Of a stretch of 64,000 nt of DNA, positions 13,649-64,000 are shown in pieces (positions within the stretch are counted from its first letter, which is position 1; each line of letters opens with the position of its first letter). Source of the DNA: Haloarcula sp. CBA1129 (GTDB lineage: Archaea; Halobacteriota; Halobacteria; Halobacteriales; Haloarculaceae). The stretch lies in the NCBI RefSeq assembly GCF_008729015.1, contig NZ_RKSM01000001.1, positions 2,728,001 through 2,792,000 of the forward strand, in the 5' to 3' direction. The notes beneath the pieces are model-generated. The model was not told the DNA's origin, ran no database searches, and was given only the letters and a program-made list of their open reading frames with translations. A program made the translations under genes and the position numbers.

Positions 13649-16480
13649 ATGGACGCTGCGCTTGGCCCGCCCGAGAAGATGGCCGAGCTCGAGGAGGACC
13701 TGACGCCGATGATGGCACAGTACTACGAGCTGTGCCGGCAGTACGACGACGCCTTGGTCCTCTTTCAGGTCGGGGACTTCTACGAGGCCTTCTGTGCGGC
13801 CGCACAGCGGGTCGCCCGGCTGTGTGAGATTACGCTGACCCAGCGCGAGGACTCGACCGGCGAGTACCCGATGGCCGGCATCCCCATCGACAACGCCGAG
13901 TCGTACGTCGAAACCCTGCTCGACGCGGGCTACCGGGTCGCCATCGCCGACCAAGTCGAGGACCCCGACGAGGTCAGCGGCGTGGTCGAACGGGCCGTCA
14001 CACGAATCGTCACGCCGGGGACGCTGACCGAGAGCGAACTGCTGGGCGGGGCGGACAACAACTACGTCGCCGCCCTGACCGAAGGCGAGCGGTACGGACT
14101 GGCGCTGCTCGACGTGTCGACCGGCGACTGCTACGCCACGAGCGTCGGTTCGGAGAGCGCTGTCGCCGACGAACTCAGCCGGTTCGGCCCGGCGGAGGCA
14201 ATCGTCGGACCGGATGTCGACGTGGACCGGGACGCCGTCTTCGGCCCGGCCTGTCTGGTGACGCGCTACGACGCGGACGCCTTCGACCGGGAGCGCGCCG
14301 CGGACCGCGTGGGACAGTACTTCGGCCCGCCGGAACGACTGCTCGCCGGCGACGCGGAAATCCGGGCCTGTGGCGGCCTGTTGGCCTACGCTGAGTACAC
14401 CCGCGGGAGCAGCGGCGCGGTCGGCCCCGACGGCGAGCCGGTCGACGCAGACGTTGACCCCGCCGGCACGCTCGACTACCTCAATCACCTCACGCGGTAC
14501 GACCCGCGGGAGTACATGCTGCTCGACGCCGTCGCCGTCGAGAGCCTCGAACTGTTCGAGCGCCGGTCAGTCCGGGGCCACGAGAACCGCACGCTCGTGG
14601 ATACGGTCGACGAGACGGCGTGTGCGCTGGGGCGGCGGAAACTGACCGACTGGCTCCGCCGACCACTGCTCGACGCGGACCGCATCGAGGCCCGCCACGG
14701 CGCGGTCGCCGAACTCCAGCGCGACCCAGCGACCCGCGAGGCGCTTTCGGACCTGCTCGCGGAGGTGTACGACCTCGAACGGCTCATCTCGCGCGTCTCG
14801 CGGGGGCGAGCGAACGCGCGAGACCTCCGGTCGCTGGCTGCGACGCTGTCGGTCGTACCCGAGATTCGGAACCAACTCGCCGACGCCGATGCCCGCCTGC
14901 TCGCGGACCTGCACGCCACGCTGGACCCGCTGACCGAGACCCGCGAGGAAATCGAAGCGGCGATTCGCCCGGACCCGCCCCAAGAGGTGACCGAGGGCGG
15001 CGTCATCCGCGAGGGGTACGACGAGGAACTGGACCGACTGCGCTCGACCGAGCAGTCGGGCAAGGAGTGGATCGACGAGCTGGAAGCGAGCGAGCGCGAG
15101 CGAACCGGTATCGACTCGCTGAAGGTCGGCCACACGTCGGTGCATGGCTATTACATCGAGGTGACCAACGCCAACCTCGATTCGGTCCCGGAGGACTACC
15201 AGCGCCGCCAGACGCTGAAAAACAGCGAGCGCTACTACACGCCGGAACTCAAGGAACGAGAAGAGGAGATTCTGCGGGCCGAAAGCGCGGCCGACGATCT
15301 TGAGTACGACCTGTTCTGTGCGGTCCGGGACGAGGTGGCCGACGAGGCCGAGCGCGTGCAGGCCCTCGCGGACCGGCTCGCCCGCCTCGACGTGCTGGTC
15401 TCGTTCGCCGAAGTCGCGGCGCAGTACGACTACTGCCGGCCGACCGTCGGGAGCGACGGCATCGACATCACCGCCGGCCGCCACCCCGTCGTCGAGCGGA
15501 CAGAGGACGCCTTCGTCCCCAACGACACGCGACTCGGGAGCGGTCCAGTGGCAGAAAGCGGAGACGGAAGCGGCGACGGCGTCGCCGCGGACGATATACA
15601 GCCCTTCCTCGCCGTCGTCACCGGCCCGAACATGAGCGGGAAATCGACGTACATGCGTCAGGTCGCACTGATTTGCTTGCTGGCACAGGCCGGCGGCTTC
15701 GTTCCCGCGAAGGCGGCCGACCTCCCCATCCTCGACCGCGTGTTCACCCGCGTCGGGGCCAGCGACGACATCGCCGGCGGCCGCTCGACGTTCATGATCG
15801 AGATGACCGAACTGGCGACGATTCTGGACGCGGCGACCGCCGACTCGCTGGTCCTGCTGGACGAGGTTGGCCGGGGTACGTCGACAGCCGACGGGCTGGC
15901 TATCGCCCGCGCCGTCACGGAGTATCTCCACGACGAGATCGGCGCGTACACGCTGTTTGCGACCCACCACCACGACCTGACTGCCGTCGCTGCGGCCCTG
16001 CCCGGGGCGACCAACCGGCACTTCGAGACCAGCCGCGAGAACGGCGACGTGTGCTTCGATCACGACCTCGCGCCCGGTCCCGCGGCGGCCTCCTACGGCA
16101 TCGAAGTGGCGAGCATGGCCGGCGTCCCCGAACCGGTCGTCGACCGGTCACGGGGCCTCCTAGCGGATGCAGAGGCGGCCGATACGAACGAAGATGAGGT
16201 GAGAACTACCGGGGAATCAGAAGGAGAGATGGCTGATTCTGACGCGAATGCCGCTGCCGCGGAGACGACTGGACCGAGCAGAAACGGCACAGCGTCGGCT
16301 TCGGATGGTGAGGCGACAGCAGACGGCCACACACAGGAGACACTTCGGACGAACGGAGCCGCCGCCGAGGGCGAATTGCCGGAATCGGTGGCACAGCAGT
16401 TGGCGTCGCTCGACGTCGCGACGATGACGCCGATAGAGGCGATGAACGCGCTCGCGGACCTGCAGGACCGACTCGAATAA
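13649..16480 (+). CDS. mutS: DNA mismatch repair protein MutS
   Basis: 943-aa MutS1-type ATPase that binds mismatched DNA. Seen: mismatch-binding domain with VGDFYEAF (Phe44, Glu46), connector, lever and clamp domains, Walker [10 protein letters not shown] at about 659-667, signature STFMIEMTE, Walker [17 protein letters not shown] and the ATHHHDLT switch. Residues about 846-905 are a disordered Asp/Glu/Ser/Ala/Thr linker with codons unlike the rest, before a C-terminal helix-turn-helix ([16 protein letters not shown]). I start at ATG 13649 because the canonical N-terminus begins soon after; the frame is open 47 codons further but that part is atypical. No mutL is adjacent. Confidence 0.97.
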
Positions 16481-16487
16481 CAGGCGG

Positions 16488-17204
16488 TCAGTTGTCGCTA
16501 TCAGCGGCCCGTTCGTCGTGCGGGCAAGCGAACATCGTCGCGACGAGTTTCTGTTCGGCAGCTCGCAAGTGCTTGTGGAGCGTTGGCTCCGAGATATCGA
16601 GAAGTGCAGCCAGATCCGCAGCCGTCGCACCGCGGGGCCAGTTGTAGTAGCCCGCTTCGTGAGCCGTCGAGAGGACTTCCCGCTGGCGGTCGGTCAGCGA
16701 CTCGGAGTTTGACGCGTAGTTTTTGAAGCCGAACAGCGGTACGATGGACTCACGCTGTTTCTTCGCCGCGAGTTCGGCCTCTGGATGGGCCGTCAGGAAC
16801 GAATCGATAACCGCAGCCGTCTTGGTCTGATCCGGAACATCGGCTACGATAGTCCCCTGTCCATCAACACTCCGGGCAGTCTGTGGTACCGCCCCGAGGT
16901 CCGCGAGCGAGACAACGGGACAGTTATCCTGTACGTCTATCTCGACGAGCCCACCGTCGCTGGTGCGCTCAAGCACCCGCGCCTCACCGCCGTTGTTGTC
17001 CTCGATGCGCTCGACAAGCCGGTCAGGACGAGTGTCCGTGACTGAAAAAAACTCCGCGTACGTGTCGTCCGTCTTCGGGAGACATTTTTCAAGAATTACG
17101 GAACACGATTCGGCTGCAGACACCGAGACAAAGGGATAGGACCCATCAGAGAGAGCAAACTCCACGCGGGTCACCGCCCGGCCGTTACCAGACTGTTGGG
17201 ACAT
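16488..17204 (-). CDS. Bat-type helix-turn-helix transcription regulator (HTH_10)
   Basis: 238-aa putative DNA-binding regulator. The C-terminal part (about 170-225) starts SLTDRQREVLSTAHEAGYY and continues TAADLAALLDISEPTLHKHL, the HTH_10 domain of the bacterio-opsin activator family. The N-terminal 150 residues resemble the Bat-associated GAF-like region but contain no clear sensor motif, so the input is unknown. I start at ATG 17204 (MSQQSGNG); the open frame reaches back to 17276, but those residues look non-coding. Convergent with mutS, 7 bp between stops. Confidence 0.85.
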   Translation of the reverse strand: MSQQSGNGRAVTRVEFALSDGSYPFVSVSAAESCSVILEKCLPKTDDTYAEFFSVTDTRPDRLVERIEDNNGGEARVLERTSDGGLVEIDVQDNCPVVSLADLGAVPQTARSVDGQGTIVADVPDQTKTAAVIDSFLTAHPEAELAAKKQRESIVPLFGFKNYASNSESLTDRQREVLSTAHEAGYYNWPRGATAADLAALLDISEPTLHKHLRAAEQKLVATMFACPHDERAADSDN

Positions 17205-17324
17205 ACATAAATGTAGCCAGCATTTCGTGAAGAATGTTGGCATACAGCGTGTTTCGCCGTTTACTATACTAGCCATGCTGAACTTTACAGCTACAAGATA
17301 AATCCGGCATGAGGTCAGAGAACC

Positions 17325-17576
17325 GTGTCTGGAACATCACCAACCACTATAGAAGTCCACGGCACCGGCCAGTCTATCGTCACGGCAGTCGTTCGCGCCG
17401 TCGCAACCGCGGAGGGACGGCCGGTCGAGACGCTGCCGCCGTTGGCCGACAGTATCAACCCAGATGCACTGACGACGTGCATCGCTGATTCCAACACCGA
17501 CGGCCATGTGGCGTTCGACTACAGCGGCTACCGCGTGGTCGTCGACACCGATGGAACGGTCACCGTTGACGGATAG
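17325..17576 (+). CDS. HalOD1 domain protein
   Basis: 83-aa protein made of a single halobacterial output domain 1: SIVTAVVRAVATAEG, then LPPLADSINPDALTTC, then VAFDYSGYRVVVDTDGTVTV. The domain is presumed to act downstream of haloarchaeal signal transduction, but its biochemical role is unknown. GTG start at 17325. AGATAAAT about 28 bp upstream could be the TATA box. It lies between the Bat-type regulator and nucS. Confidence 0.8.
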   Translation: MSGTSPTTIEVHGTGQSIVTAVVRAVATAEGRPVETLPPLADSINPDALTTCIADSNTDGHVAFDYSGYRVVVDTDGTVTVDG

Positions 17577-17657
17577 CTTCGCCATCCAACCGTGTGGCGA
17601 CTGCGGCAGTCAACGCGGGTACAAGACTGACAGCTCCGTGGGAAAAGAACAGAGCAG

Positions 17658-18377
17658 TTACGGCGGCTCCAGCGAGACGAACTCCAATCCCTTCTCGGCG
17701 AGCAACTGACGCGCCCGGTCAGTCACCGAGGGCGCAACGAGGATACCCCGGACTTCGGTGTCGGCGTGTAAATCGCGGTTCAGGGCATCGACGTACCGGC
17801 CCAGTTGGCCGACGGCGTCGGGACCCACGCGGCGGCGCTTGAGTTCGAGTATCGTCGTCCGACCGTCGGTATCCTCGCCGTAGATATCGACCGCGCCGGC
17901 CGGGGTCTCGCGTTCGGTTGCAAGCGGTGTAAAGCCCGGTTCGACCAGCGCTGGCTCGTCGAGGATGCGGTCTTTCAGGTCGGCTTCCGTCCCAGTGAGT
18001 GCGAGGTCTTTGGAGTCGGTCACGTCGAAGGCGGCGGCGTGGGCGACCGTCTCGAAAACGACCTCAAGCGATTCTTCGGGGGACGACCGCGTGGAGCGGA
18101 CGACCAGCGAGCCGTCGTCGACGCTGATACTGTGCTCACACCCCGGCGGCTGCCAGTTCACCGGCTGTTGGCCCTCGTCGGTGTGGACCAGCGCGGCCCC
18201 GTCAGGCTTGAGCATCACATGGCGGTCCCCAAGGCCCAGTGAACTGGCCGCTCGGCCCTCGTACTCGACCGTACAGGTGCCCACGAGCGTCACCAGCGCG
18301 CCGCGGTCGGCGTTGCGCGACACGAGGTCCACCGCGTCGGCGGGGTCGGGGTAGGTCAGCGTCTCGACGGCGGTCAC
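17658..18377 (-). CDS. nucS: Endonuclease NucS (EndoMS)
   Basis: 239-aa nuclease with an N-terminal beta-barrel DNA-binding domain (about 1-120) and a C-terminal RecB-like nuclease domain. Seen: PAGAVDIYGEDTDG with the catalytic Asp, TILELKRRRVGPDAVGQL giving the E-x-K catalytic pair and the downstream Gln, then YVDALNRDL. In archaea and actinobacteria NucS/EndoMS cuts mismatched or branched DNA and works with the sliding clamp. The tail FVSLEPP is not an obvious PCNA-binding box. It overlaps nothing and ends 81 bp from the HalOD1 gene; mutS lies about 1.2 kb away. Confidence 0.93.
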   Translation of the reverse strand: MTAVETLTYPDPADAVDLVSRNADRGALVTLVGTCTVEYEGRAASSLGLGDRHVMLKPDGAALVHTDEGQQPVNWQPPGCEHSISVDDGSLVVRSTRSSPEESLEVVFETVAHAAAFDVTDSKDLALTGTEADLKDRILDEPALVEPGFTPLATERETPAGAVDIYGEDTDGRTTILELKRRRVGPDAVGQLGRYVDALNRDLHADTEVRGILVAPSVTDRARQLLAEKGLEFVSLEPP

Positions 18378-18386
18378 GGGTGGCGG

Positions 18387-18824
18387 TTAGCGGTCCCCGC
18401 GTAAAAAGGACGCGTCGTCGGGAGAGTAGACGGACGAAGCGCGGTTTCGGAGCGACGCGAGCAGATCGCGTCGGATGGTCGCCGGGTCCCGCCCCTTGCT
18501 ATCGAGGAGTCGACAGGCCTCGTCCTTCCGGTCGACCCACCACGTCCGGAGCGCAGCGGGGTCGGCAGTGCGGGCGAGGACGATATCGTCGATATCTGAC
18601 AGCGTCGGGTCGAGCCAGCAGACCGCGTAGGTCCGGACCGAGCCATCGAGCACGACTAGCTGATCGTGGGTCGCATTGAGGGCAGCAAGGACAGTAGCGG
18701 CCGTCCAGTCGTTCCCGAGCGGTCGGGACTGGGCGATGGGGTCGGCGTCGACGCCCCAGTGTGCGATTCGGCAGTCGTAGCGGCCGTCAGGACGGGCGAC
18801 GGCCACAAGCGTTCGACGACCCAT
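18387..18824 (-). CDS. Conserved haloarchaeal protein (DUF6735-like)
   Basis: 145 aa. The N-terminus MGRRTLVAVARPDGRYDCR followed by IAHWG resembles the haloarchaeal DUF6735 family, function unknown; this match is from memory and weak. The middle contains VLDGSVRTYAVCWLDPTLSD, and the C-terminus is Arg/Asp-rich. It is 10 bp upstream of nucS on the same strand, so the two are probably one transcript, which would make it a candidate NucS partner. Confidence 0.6.
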   Translation of the reverse strand: MGRRTLVAVARPDGRYDCRIAHWGVDADPIAQSRPLGNDWTAATVLAALNATHDQLVVLDGSVRTYAVCWLDPTLSDIDDIVLARTADPAALRTWWVDRKDEACRLLDSKGRDPATIRRDLLASLRNRASSVYSPDDASFLRGDR

Positions 18825-62008: not shown

Positions 62009-64000
62009 CTACTCGAACTTCCCGAGCAAATCGCTGTAGAAGCCGTCCTCGTCGGTCCCGTCGTCAGCGAGCTTTTCGACGATAAGCTCCGGCGTCGAGC
62101 GGGCGAGCTTTCCCTTGACAGGGGAGCGTTCGACACGCAGTTCGCCGTTTTTCAGCCCTTTCGCCTCGATGCCGTCAATGCTGATATCGGTCTCGGCGGC
62201 TTCGCGGATGTCACGCGCGAGGTGGGAGACGAAGATGGCCGTGGCCTGACGTTCGCCGAGCGCTTCGAGGATGCCGGCCATAATCTTCGCGCTGGCTCCG
62301 GGCTCGGTTATCGATTCGAGTTCGTCGACGAGCACCATCACCGGGCGGTCGTCGGTCCCGGCCGCTGGCCCATCGGTAGCGGCACCGTCCTCTGGGTCTG
62401 GATTGCGGTGATCCACATCAGCGACGAGGTCACCGAACTCCCGCAGCGTGGCCTCGAACGCGCCGGCGTCGAGCGTCCCCTGCGTCTTGGCGTGGTAGTG
62501 GAGTTCGGAGATACGACCCACGCGGGCCGCCTCCGCTGGAACGGGCAGACCCATGTGTGCCAGCGTCGTCACCAGCGCCACGAGGTCCAGCGTCGAGGTT
62601 TTCCCACCGCTGTTGACCCCCGAGAGGACGGTCACGCCCTCGACGTCGTAATCGACGGGCTCGACGGCTTCGAAGGGGACATCGAGCAGCGGCGAGCGCC
62701 CGCCCTCGATGGCGACACCCTCGGATTCTGTCAGGTCTGGCATCACACAGTCGAAATCGTTGGCGAAGCGGGCAATCGCCAGCTCCACGTCGAGTTCGAG
62801 CGCGGCATCGACCAGCCCGGCAGCGTCCTCGCGCATCTCCGCGAGGTCGTCGGCCAGTTCCCGCTTCCGGCGGGTAGCGCGCTGGTCGCGCGCGGCGGTC
62901 AGTTCCTCACGGAGACGGGCGACGACATCCTCGCTGTGTTCGACCGGGTAGGCGGGCTCGTCGGGAAACGCCCGGCGGGCCGTCGCCTCCATGTCCCGGA
63001 GCGCCAGCGCATCGACGAGATGGTCGCGGGCCTTCTCGACGGCGGCGGCGTACTCGTCGGCCAGTTCGCGCTGGAGCAGCGAATCGACGCCCGCGCCGCG
63101 CTCGACCAGCGACAGCAGGTCCGTCCCCTCGATGGTCACGTCCTGCTCCTCGATAGCTTCCCTAAGGTGGTCGTTAGCGACGCTCTCGGCCGTCGACACT
63201 GCCGCGTCGAGGTCGTCGACAGCGGTGGTGAGGCGGTCGAGTTCCTCGTCGCCGCTGACGCTCCCGTCCTCGTCGAGCTGGTCGAGCGCCGACAGCAGCG
63301 TCTGCAGGTCACACGGCGCGTCGAGGTCGGCGACGCGGTGGACCTCGGCGGCGGCCCGTATCCGGTCGCGGTTGCGGGCGAAGAAGGTGAGTACGCGTTC
63401 GGGGACGACGGATTCTGGTTCCTCTAGCGCCGTCGGTTCCACCCGCACGTCACCCTCGATATCGACGCCGGCGAAGGCCTCGTCCAGCGCGACGACCGTC
63501 GAGTACGACCGGGCGAGTTCGGCCAGCTGGCGGGCGTCGTCGACGACCTCGACGCTGACCTCCGGAATCGCGGCCTGTGCGTCGGCGTAGCGTTCGGCGT
63601 CGCGGGTGGCCAGACAGCGGTCCCGGACCCGAACGTCGCCGGGCTCGGCCAGCGGTTCGACGGCCGACAGGGCGTCCAGAACCGCTGCGTCGGGTTCTCG
63701 CTCCATCGCCGCCTCGGCGAACGAGCGGACTTCCTCGATTCGGCTGCGAACGCCGCTGGGGTAGATCGTCTCCAGTCGCTTCGCGGCGTAGTCGGTCACC
63801 GTCCGGTCGGTCAGCAGGGCCAGTGCGTCCTCGTGAATCTCTCTGGCGCGTTTCGTCGCGGCGAACCCGCCGGGGTCGTCGTGTTCGGCCCGAATCGCAC
63901 CACGAGCGATGCGGGCGGCCCGGCCCTCGCTGATGCCCGGTGCGCGTGCGAGCGACGCCACGTCGCCGTCCCGGAGTGCCGCCTCCGGGTCGTCTAGTTC
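62009..64000 (-). CDS. HhH-containing MutS-like ATPase (5' end beyond window)
   Basis: At least 663 aa; the frame is open to the right edge, so the start lies outside. N-terminal part seen so far is helix-hairpin-helix-like (VASLARAPGISEGRAARIAR). Middle: long helical core. C-terminal ATPase: Walker A SGVNSGGKTST, then EVGRISELHYHAKTQ-type segment, Walker B VMVLVDELESI with a following TEPGASAKIM. Resembles MutS2/MutS5-type proteins but no Smr nuclease domain is at the end. Probably acts in DNA junction or recombination control. Confidence 0.88.
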   Translation of the reverse strand, partial: ELDDPEAALRDGDVASLARAPGISEGRAARIARGAIRAEHDDPGGFAATKRAREIHEDALALLTDRTVTDYAAKRLETIYPSGVRSRIEEVRSFAEAAMEREPDAAVLDALSAVEPLAEPGDVRVRDRCLATRDAERYADAQAAIPEVSVEVVDDARQLAELARSYSTVVALDEAFAGVDIEGDVRVEPTALEEPESVVPERVLTFFARNRDRIRAAAEVHRVADLDAPCDLQTLLSALDQLDEDGSVSGDEELDRLTTAVDDLDAAVSTAESVANDHLREAIEEQDVTIEGTDLLSLVERGAGVDSLLQRELADEYAAAVEKARDHLVDALALRDMEATARRAFPDEPAYPVEHSEDVVARLREELTAARDQRATRRKRELADDLAEMREDAAGLVDAALELDVELAIARFANDFDCVMPDLTESEGVAIEGGRSPLLDVPFEAVEPVDYDVEGVTVLSGVNSGGKTSTLDLVALVTTLAHMGLPVPAEAARVGRISELHYHAKTQGTLDAGAFEATLREFGDLVADVDHRNPDPEDGAATDGPAAGTDDRPVMVLVDELESITEPGASAKIMAGILEALGERQATAIFVSHLARDIREAAETDISIDGIEAKGLKNGELRVERSPVKGKLARSTPELIVEKLADDGTDEDGFYSDLLGKFE

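Follow-up and report, generated by a model that had tools for sequence, protein, structure and literature searches.

Conserved tail-to-tail linkage of the mutS1B and nucS genes in haloarchaea suggests a MutL-independent mismatch-processing module

According to a review, the MutS–MutL and NucS pathways of mismatch repair exclude each other, apart from a few groups that include halobacteria (PMC8228993), and a possible interplay of the two was stated to remain to be elucidated (PMC5290159, PMC7776575). Both systems also occur in a further group, Deinococcus-Thermus. The coexistence of MutS and NucS in one genome is already known; a report of linkage between their genes was not found in the open-licence PMC literature, which was searched chiefly at the level of titles and abstracts. 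Described systems that come close to the locus studied here include canonical MutS–MutL repair, the non-canonical EndoMS/NucS repair of Thermococcus, Corynebacterium and Mycobacterium, and the mutS1b–mutLb pair of Haloferax, stated to form an operon (PMC7776575). For NucS, roles in the mismatch pocket were attributed to Tyr41, Asn76 and Trp77 (PMC6829318).

The window analyzed in this study is the whole stretch of 64,000 nucleotides from Haloarcula sp. CBA1129. It encodes a MutS on the forward strand (13,649 to 16,480, starting with ATG at 13,649 and ending with the stop codon at 16,480) and a NucS/EndoMS on the reverse strand (17,658 to 18,377). The two genes converge tail-to-tail and hence do not represent one operon. 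Their distance of 1,177 bp agrees with the 1.2 kb given by the first-pass annotation, and the two genes that it had placed between them were confirmed by Pfam as a bacterioopsin-activator-type (BAT/HTH_10) regulator (16,488 to 17,276, reverse strand) and a HalOD1 output-domain protein (17,325 to 17,576, forward strand; PF18545, 2.4e-21). A family resembling the regulator and a family of 90 aa resembling the HalOD1 protein were each found at only 7 out of 80 NucS-centred loci, in two genera, and both genes were rejected as core members of the neighbourhood. A promoter and terminator scan, based on bacterial consensus sequences that are of little use in archaea, detected nothing.

Like the MutS of the canonical system, the MutS encoded in the window features all five domains of the MutS1 family (Pfam MutS_I to MutS_V, all above the cut-off), the Phe-Tyr-Glu mismatch probe (GDFYE) and the Walker A and B motifs. 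In the tree, it was placed among the haloarchaeal MutS1B proteins, within the NucS-linked clade, and the second MutS of the genome represents MutS1A. Absence of MutL nearby, as noted in the first-pass annotation, holds for the window, but not for the genome: the search for mutL elsewhere returned a single match at C1:3062991, with MutS1A (C1:3073712) approximately 10 kb and the MutS1B–NucS pair about 0.32 Mb away. The idea of a genome devoid of MutL was thus rejected. This MutL carries the endonuclease motif. In contrast to a canonical module, mutS1B does not have mutL beside it; its adjoining partner gene is nucS.

The window NucS shares the two-domain architecture of the EndoMS/NucS family (Pfam NucS_N, 4.5e-28; NucS_C, 1.8e-31) and matched EndoMS 5gke (E 7e-57) and NucS 2vld (E 5e-53). 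Its PH-like mismatch-reading domain retains the Tyr/Asn/Trp pocket within intact YEGRA and VNWQPPG motifs, and the nuclease domain features GAVDIYG and ELK. The catalytic Asp/Glu/Lys residues, which we take to be D165/E179/K181 in Tko numbering, were present in all 106 NucS rows compared, including that of the window. However, the protein ends at LEPP, whereas 5gke and 2vld extend 14–18 aa beyond this point. Lacking the C-terminal tail that binds the clamp (PCNA), it belongs to the family, but not to its clamp-tailed type, and it further differs from the described EndoMS/NucS enzymes in that its gene is tied to a MutS gene. A clamp-like tail motif was likewise missing from all NucS linked to MutS1B (0/54). 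Clamp-type NucS, occurring as a second NucS in Halobacterium-type and other genomes (e.g., at locus L149), share the family fold and the catalytic residues, but form a separate clade (100/100), with the pocket retained in 9/10, a clamp-like tail in 10/10 and none of the ten encoded within 10 kb of MutS1B. A second NucS of this type was not found in the window genome.

The first-pass annotation had called for a comparison of this gene order with that of other haloarchaea. With the Haloferax-like family set aside, less than 10 kb separated NucS from MutS1B in 50 out of 62 genomes, all 50 being tail-to-tail, and in a further genome set the respective numbers were 58 and 56 out of 65. Among 80 named NucS-centred loci, MutS1B was linked in 70 and tail-to-tail in 69; these loci were retrieved with a query built from 12 linked NucS, which may favour linked loci, and partly duplicate species of the two genome sets. 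The remaining 12/62 and 7/65 genomes did not encode the two genes within 10 kb, five of the latter seven having them on different contigs. At six loci the genes overlap by 4 bp, and at others differing genes lie in between, as determined in a survey for which the gene caller missed one gene in each of four linked loci. The next most common neighbour families at the 80 loci, obtained by automatic gene calling, were DUF6735 (43 loci) and then families at ≤11 loci. An unconserved neighbourhood, one half of what the first-pass annotation had named as refuting its view, was thus rejected; the MutS1B–NucS pairing is conserved in haloarchaea and, given these counts, exceeds chance.

Presence and absence of the two genes also coincide where a second MutL (MutL2) is missing. 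Of 116 genomes, 69 lack MutL2; 62 of these encode both NucS and MutS1B, seven encode neither and none encodes only one of them (naive p 9e-10), with MutS1A and MutS1B being assigned from the MutS_V match alone outside the genomes typed by sequence (full-sequence typing left out G007, G101, G217 and G382). When independent pairs were compared, with G021 left out, five pairs pointed in the expected direction, with p between 0.06 and 0.25 and thus above 0.05. Genome G021 encodes a MutS1B-like sequence adjoining a 605-aa MutL; it was placed in the MutL2 class and fits the profile only by this assignment, representing MutS1B without NucS otherwise. The seven genomes without NucS and MutL2 each have one MutS and one MutL, and the five typed by sequence carry MutS1A. 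Four genomes (G207, G208, G235 and G252) have NucS without MutS1B, indicating that NucS does not depend on the presence of MutS1B.

Where NucS is missing and two MutS are present, two MutL were found in 15 out of 15 genomes. As in the Haloferax mutS1b–mutLb pair, an orthologous MutS1B stands next to a dedicated nuclease-type gene in this second arrangement; there, however, the neighbour is MutL2 on the same strand, and NucS is located elsewhere or lost. The endonuclease motif DQHA(X)2E(X)4E was identified in 14/15 MutL2 sequences. The MutS1B tree divides accordingly, with 45 NucS-linked rows on one side and 15 MutL2-linked rows on the other; rows were preselected as NucS-linked or MutL2-linked rather than sampled at random, unlinked ones being left out. 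Mismatch and ATPase motifs were intact in all 45 NucS-linked rows, two of which have the variant GPNMAGKST. Domain II of MutS binds MutL. A clustering of partner-specific residues in this connector domain was rejected, since only two of nine type-specific columns are located in domain II and the others in domains I, IV and V. Likewise rejected was a PIP box on MutS1B, the only two matches (QNSVHGYY) lying within domain sequence.

The pocket of linked NucS is not uniformly preserved, which again separates some relatives of the window NucS from the described EndoMS/NucS enzymes. It was kept in 41/54 and broken in 13/54, the latter reflecting few independent events, while the catalytic residues were intact in all 54. 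The pocket was kept in 41/42 unlinked NucS (one being truncated), in 29/29 f4 NucS and in 4/4 NucS from genomes without MutS1B. Four pairs of NucS with degenerate pockets yielded dN/dS values of 0.14–0.29, and together with the intact catalytic residues these values led to the rejection of the assumption that the degenerate copies are dead genes. For one such NucS (G067), an AlphaFold model (pTM 0.51) still matched EndoMS best (E 3e-25), albeit with TM-scores of only 0.41–0.44 and an rmsd of 10–15 Å. Within the linked type of the NucS tree, linkage characterizes every one of the deepest branches, two changes are required for the 35 NucS from genomes with MutL2 or without MutS1B, and five NucS not adjoining MutS1B are scattered in the tree; the rows of this tree were preselected as linked or MutL2-linked rather than sampled at random, G249 (184 aa, N-terminus missing) was omitted and rows above 330 aa were cut to the last 300.

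The first-pass annotation had proposed that NucS might do the cutting for MutS. This view, under which the two proteins would be coupled, is favoured by their linkage, by their co-occurrence and shared absence, by the exchange for an endonuclease-type MutL and by pocket loss in some linked lineages. Joint regulation, its second suggestion, would have to act on two convergent genes outside a shared operon. MutS1B and NucS probably constitute a two-part, MutL-independent module for mismatch or heteroduplex processing, composed of a sensor and a dedicated nuclease. The retained tail-to-tail linkage suggests that two supposedly alternative repair systems may act as sensor and scissors. MutS1B would serve as the ATP-driven mispair sensor, contact NucS and recruit or activate it, and NucS would cut at or near the site bound by MutS1B. 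The likeliest place of action would be heteroduplex that arises when the many copies of the genome recombine or undergo gene conversion, and the module may also contribute to the repair of replication errors where other systems give no cover. A broader reading, for and against which we see the balance as even, is a third layout of mismatch repair, in which sensing by MutS directly licenses cutting by NucS without MutL, NucS having abandoned its own mismatch reading and being only the blade in Halobacterium-type and two Natrialbaceae-type genomes, and this blade being swapped elsewhere for an endonuclease-type MutL; the main task of such a system may be the surveillance of heteroduplex formed between copies of the genome.

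The linkage could also reflect two independent pathways sharing a neighbourhood through ancestry, joint transfer or loss of a block, or shared regulation, which appears rather unlikely to us. Convergent orientation and the full pocket in most linked NucS are compatible with it, and loss of a block would likewise produce joint absence. Since both proteins handle mismatches, their adjacency could represent a repair island, as exemplified by locus L068, where mutL, mutS1A, nucS and mutS1B all lie within about 14 kb. However, other neighbours are far less conserved, the linkage persists despite the insertion of differing genes, MutL2-linked MutS1B form a clade of their own, and loss of the pocket with catalysis kept requires another source of targeting.

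Even less probable is that MutS1B partners the distant MutL in ordinary repair, redundantly with MutS1A, with its closeness to NucS being incidental. The genome does possess a MutL with endonuclease motif, and MutS1B has every MutS domain; yet two genomes without a MutL match (G010 and G220) retain MutS1B beside NucS as their single MutS (dN/dS 0.12), the MutL found directly beside MutS1B is MutL2 and accompanies a different MutS1B clade, and the sequence-typed genomes lacking both NucS and MutL2 kept MutS1A. We regard as similarly remote, and slightly more so, the opposite role for MutS1B, namely restraining NucS by binding heteroduplex and shielding it from double-strand cutting. Linkage and co-occurrence would also fit an antagonist, and NucS cleavage in vitro was reported to give double-strand-break-like products (PMC7690668). 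Nevertheless, a NucS without pocket would not require a shield, and the persistence of MutS1B beside an endonuclease-type MutL after NucS loss better fits a sensor with exchangeable nucleases.

Genetic data from the literature bear on the sensor–nuclease module in both directions. For Haloferax, deletions of mutS1b and nucS were reported to impair gene conversion, whereas deletion of mutS1a did not (PMC11276520), and nucS was described as not expressed under the conditions tested. As MutS1B of Haloferax is of the MutL2 type, its phenotype supports a pairing with NucS only loosely. Speaking against the module, the 5-FOA mutation frequency of Halobacterium salinarum, in which nucS (VNG_0171) lies beside mutS1B (VNG_0172), was comparable after mutS1A and mutS1B had both been deleted (5.7 vs. 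8.0 e-5); the 5-FOA table of that report contains no mutS1B single mutant (PMC2816208). The second nucS of this species could mask the effect of the deletions, which may help to explain the absent mutator effect. The linked pair makes the question of MutS–MutL and NucS interplay concretely testable. If the proposed module is correct, mismatch sensing and cutting are separate in NucS repair, and the nuclease was exchanged during evolution.

Directly upstream of nucS and on the same strand, a DUF6735-type protein is encoded (18,387 to 18,824, reverse strand; Pfam DUF6735, 1.1e-10, first 38 aa), with 9 bp between it and the GTG annotated as the start codon of nucS. Its structural model (pLDDT 89.5) gave no confident Foldseek match in the PDB (best E 0.36), and VIA-align on the Foldseek candidates reached a Z of only 4.5. 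Relatives were found at 65 out of 80 NucS-centred loci and at 18 out of 44 linked loci, and the gene is a possible third member of the neighbourhood that may be co-transcribed with nucS.

The MutS gene (13649-16480, + strand) and the NucS gene (17658-18377, - strand) noted by the first-pass annotation, together with the Bat-type (BAT/HTH_10) and HalOD1 protein genes between them, were confirmed by ORFs and Pfam domains. Genome searches of the 4.05 Mb haloarchaeal genome yielded one NucS, one MutL featuring the endonuclease motif, two strong MutS matches, of which one is the window gene and the other lies ~10 kb from MutL, and two weaker MutS-like matches. Hence, the pair was correctly described as having no MutL nearby, while the genome itself is not MutL-free. 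In searches of 71 further genomes from the class, the MutS of the window matched two MutS, one with 52-95% identity and the other with 41-47%; these are named MutS1B and MutS1A, respectively, following Halobacterium usage (PMC2816208). A MutS-like ATPase gene, judged from its sequence to be probably of the MutS5 type, lies at 62010-64000 (- strand) and continues past the window edge (locus L009, 2010-4067), and a further MutS-like match was located at C1:1363031.

To evaluate gene order in other haloarchaea, 116 genomes of the class were searched for NucS (present in 105), MutS (116), and MutL (115), and MutS1B was located in them. Outside genome family f4, NucS and MutS1B lay within 10 kb in 50 of the 62 genomes carrying both, always tail-to-tail, and farther apart in 12. 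None of the 43 f4 genomes with both genes showed them within 10 kb, 18 having them on one contig at a distance of at least 131 kb and 25 on different contigs. A further 80 genomes from a 391-genome draw, comprising 16 exceptions and members of other families, were picked ahead of seeing any of their MutS1B positions. Both genes were present in 70 of them; after removal of five genomes with a known second MutL (G249, G317, G323, G337, and G374), 65 remained, MutL having been counted in a minority of these, and the genes were within 10 kb in 58 (56 tail-to-tail, 2 on the same strand), farther apart in 2, and on different contigs in 5. Among 80 named loci fetched by NucS alignment, MutS1B was found at ≤7 kb in 70, and tail-to-tail in 69. 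The adjacency is therefore real and, as a conserved MutS1B-NucS pair, stronger than originally claimed. Up to three genes intervene in linked loci. Six loci (L070, L071, L073, L076, L080, and L081) show a 4-bp tail-to-tail overlap of the pair, so that the 3' ends of the two mRNAs are probably antisense to each other.

The two genes also occur together. Leaving out 47 genomes with MutL2, the endonuclease-type MutL found beside MutS1B, namely, 44 of f4 plus G044, G073, and G021 (the latter placed on the sequence of its MutS), 62 of the remaining 69 genomes had both genes, 7 neither, and 0 a single one (naive chance 9e-10, a calculation ignoring kinship of genomes). In a MutS1A tree of 42 genomes, five pairs differed in MutS1B on supported branches, and NucS differed in the same direction in 4.4 on average, in the opposite direction in 0, and not at all in 0.6 (p 0.06-0.25), so that this test is not significant by itself. 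A NucS match was missing in 31 of the 391 genomes, 11 of these being inferred by comparing match lists; all 15 with two MutS have two MutL, and the 16 with a single MutS have a single MutL each. NucS-bearing genomes with two MutS were checked for MutS1B in the 116 and 80 sets. NucS occurred without MutS1B in G207, G208, G235, and G252, and in the fragmented or incomplete assemblies G278, G285, G309, G376, and G389. In G010 and G220, no MutL match was found, and the sole MutS is a MutS1B adjoining NucS; dN/dS values of 0.12 for this MutS1B, indicating purifying selection, and 0.15 for the NucS pair were obtained. Each of these two genomes has a second NucS elsewhere.

All 44 f4 genomes possess two MutL, one of them ≤3 kb from MutS1B (33 from the pair search, 11 from coordinates). 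Family f4 is probably the Haloferax family, since mutLa/mutLb have been described in Haloferax (PMC11276520, PMC7776575). MutL2 lies on the same strand as MutS1B, abutting or overlapping it in most loci, and its endonuclease motif was present in 14 of 15 sequences. A tree whose MutS1B were all either NucS-linked (45 rows) or MutL2-linked (15 rows) separated these two groups (SH-aLRT 93), MutS1A falling outside. The MutL2-linked group includes f1 and f8 as well as f4 genomes, a grouping which suggests that the mutS1B-mutL2 operon was passed by horizontal transfer. In the f1/f8 genomes with such operons (L114-L118), NucS is missing or lies on a different contig. A tree of 105 NucS, the bootstrap of which had not settled completely, showed linkage in every one of the deepest branches of the MutS-linked type. 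Two changes (in f4 and in an f8/f1 group, with G207 labelled apart) are required to account for the 35 NucS from genomes that have MutL2 or lack MutS1B, and five NucS that are simply not next to MutS1B are scattered. Judging from this branching, the link seems to be ancestral, and its loss on a large scale coincides with a new nuclease or with MutS1B loss. The ~1.9 Mb genome G021 (L163) encodes a single MutS1B-like MutS beside a 605-aa MutL, with no NucS match in the genome search; the MutL2 form thus seems able to stand alone.

Characterised EndoMS/NucS proteins bind the sliding clamp via a C-terminal peptide (PMC8228993) and hold flipped mismatch bases by Tyr41, Asn76, and Trp77 (PMC6829318). 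The window NucS could be aligned with 5gke and 2vld up to where the nuclease domain ends, but is then 14-18 residues shorter than both, and a clamp-like C-terminal motif was found in none of 54 linked NucS. In Halobacterium-type genomes, among others, there is a second NucS that falls into a separate clade (100/100), with the mismatch pocket kept in 9/10 and a clamp-like end in 10/10 (e.g., ...KLTDF). These paralogs (L149 1039-1800 and L150-L158), distinct from the MutS-linked NucS, occur in several families of haloarchaea; none was found in the window genome by genome search. Long, variable, acidic C-terminal tails of up to ~70 aa, without a clamp-like motif, were observed in several f4 NucS (L085, L086, L087, L088, L091, and L092).

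Of the 54 linked NucS, 13 have a broken pocket, namely, 11 of 14 from f2, assigned to the Halobacterium/Halarchaeum family by similarity to L199 and L264, and those of G064 and G238 of f3, probably representing two or three events, while the catalytic Asp/Glu/Lys residues are intact in all 54. The pocket is intact in the window NucS, in f4 (29/29), in NucS without MutS1B (4/4) or not adjacent to it (5/5), and in 3/4 f1/f8 NucS of MutL2 genomes, the exception G249 missing its N-terminus. Pfam NucS_N values weakened from 4.5e-28 (window) to 1.7e-12 (G067), 1.4e-5 (G238), and 9e-4 (G064, under the cut-off), with NucS_C steady at about 1e-25 to 1e-31. Degenerate-pocket NucS gave dN/dS values of 0.14-0.29 (four pairs). 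A clamp-type copy is also present in f2 and G238; the NucS search revealed none in G064.

A NucS with an active site but without a reading head would require a guide, for which the neighbouring MutS1B would be a candidate, its sensor and ATPase motifs being intact in 45/45 NucS-linked rows. We infer functional coupling of MutS1B and NucS, and consider it rather probable that the conserved pair is a MutL-free sensor-and-nuclease module. In H. salinarum, nucS (VNG_0171G) and mutS (VNG_0172G) have locus tags that follow each other, and VNG_1986G is listed as a second nucS (PMC9997560); no remark on the adjacency was found in the text covered. Mutation frequencies measured there on a plasmid target were comparable (parent 5.7, mutS1A mutS1B 8.0, mutL 7.4 e-5; PMC2816208), which speaks against MutS1B as a main antimutator in this organism, although the second NucS was still present. 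In Haloferax, gene conversion is influenced by nucS, mutS1b, and both mutL genes but not by mutS1a, although nucS was without expression under the analysed conditions (PMC11276520); cells without nucS had no phenotype in earlier work, and mutSL deletion raised the mutation rate, cited as unpublished (PMC7776575). Such data point to a role in the processing of heteroduplex, although Haloferax is of the MutL2 type. Within the open-licence PMC texts covered, no report of the linkage, partner swap, or pocket loss was found.

A DUF6735-type gene (18387-18824, - strand) lies immediately upstream of NucS, which is on the same strand. It was the only other frequent neighbour in the 80 NucS-centred named loci (43 by automatic gene calling, 65 by profile search), every family beyond it and MutS1B occurring in at most 11, and it was present in 18/44 linked loci; in 45 linked loci, the third commonest family was found in 18. 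Its protein has a confidently predicted structure, with no confident fold match in the PDB, and may be a third component.
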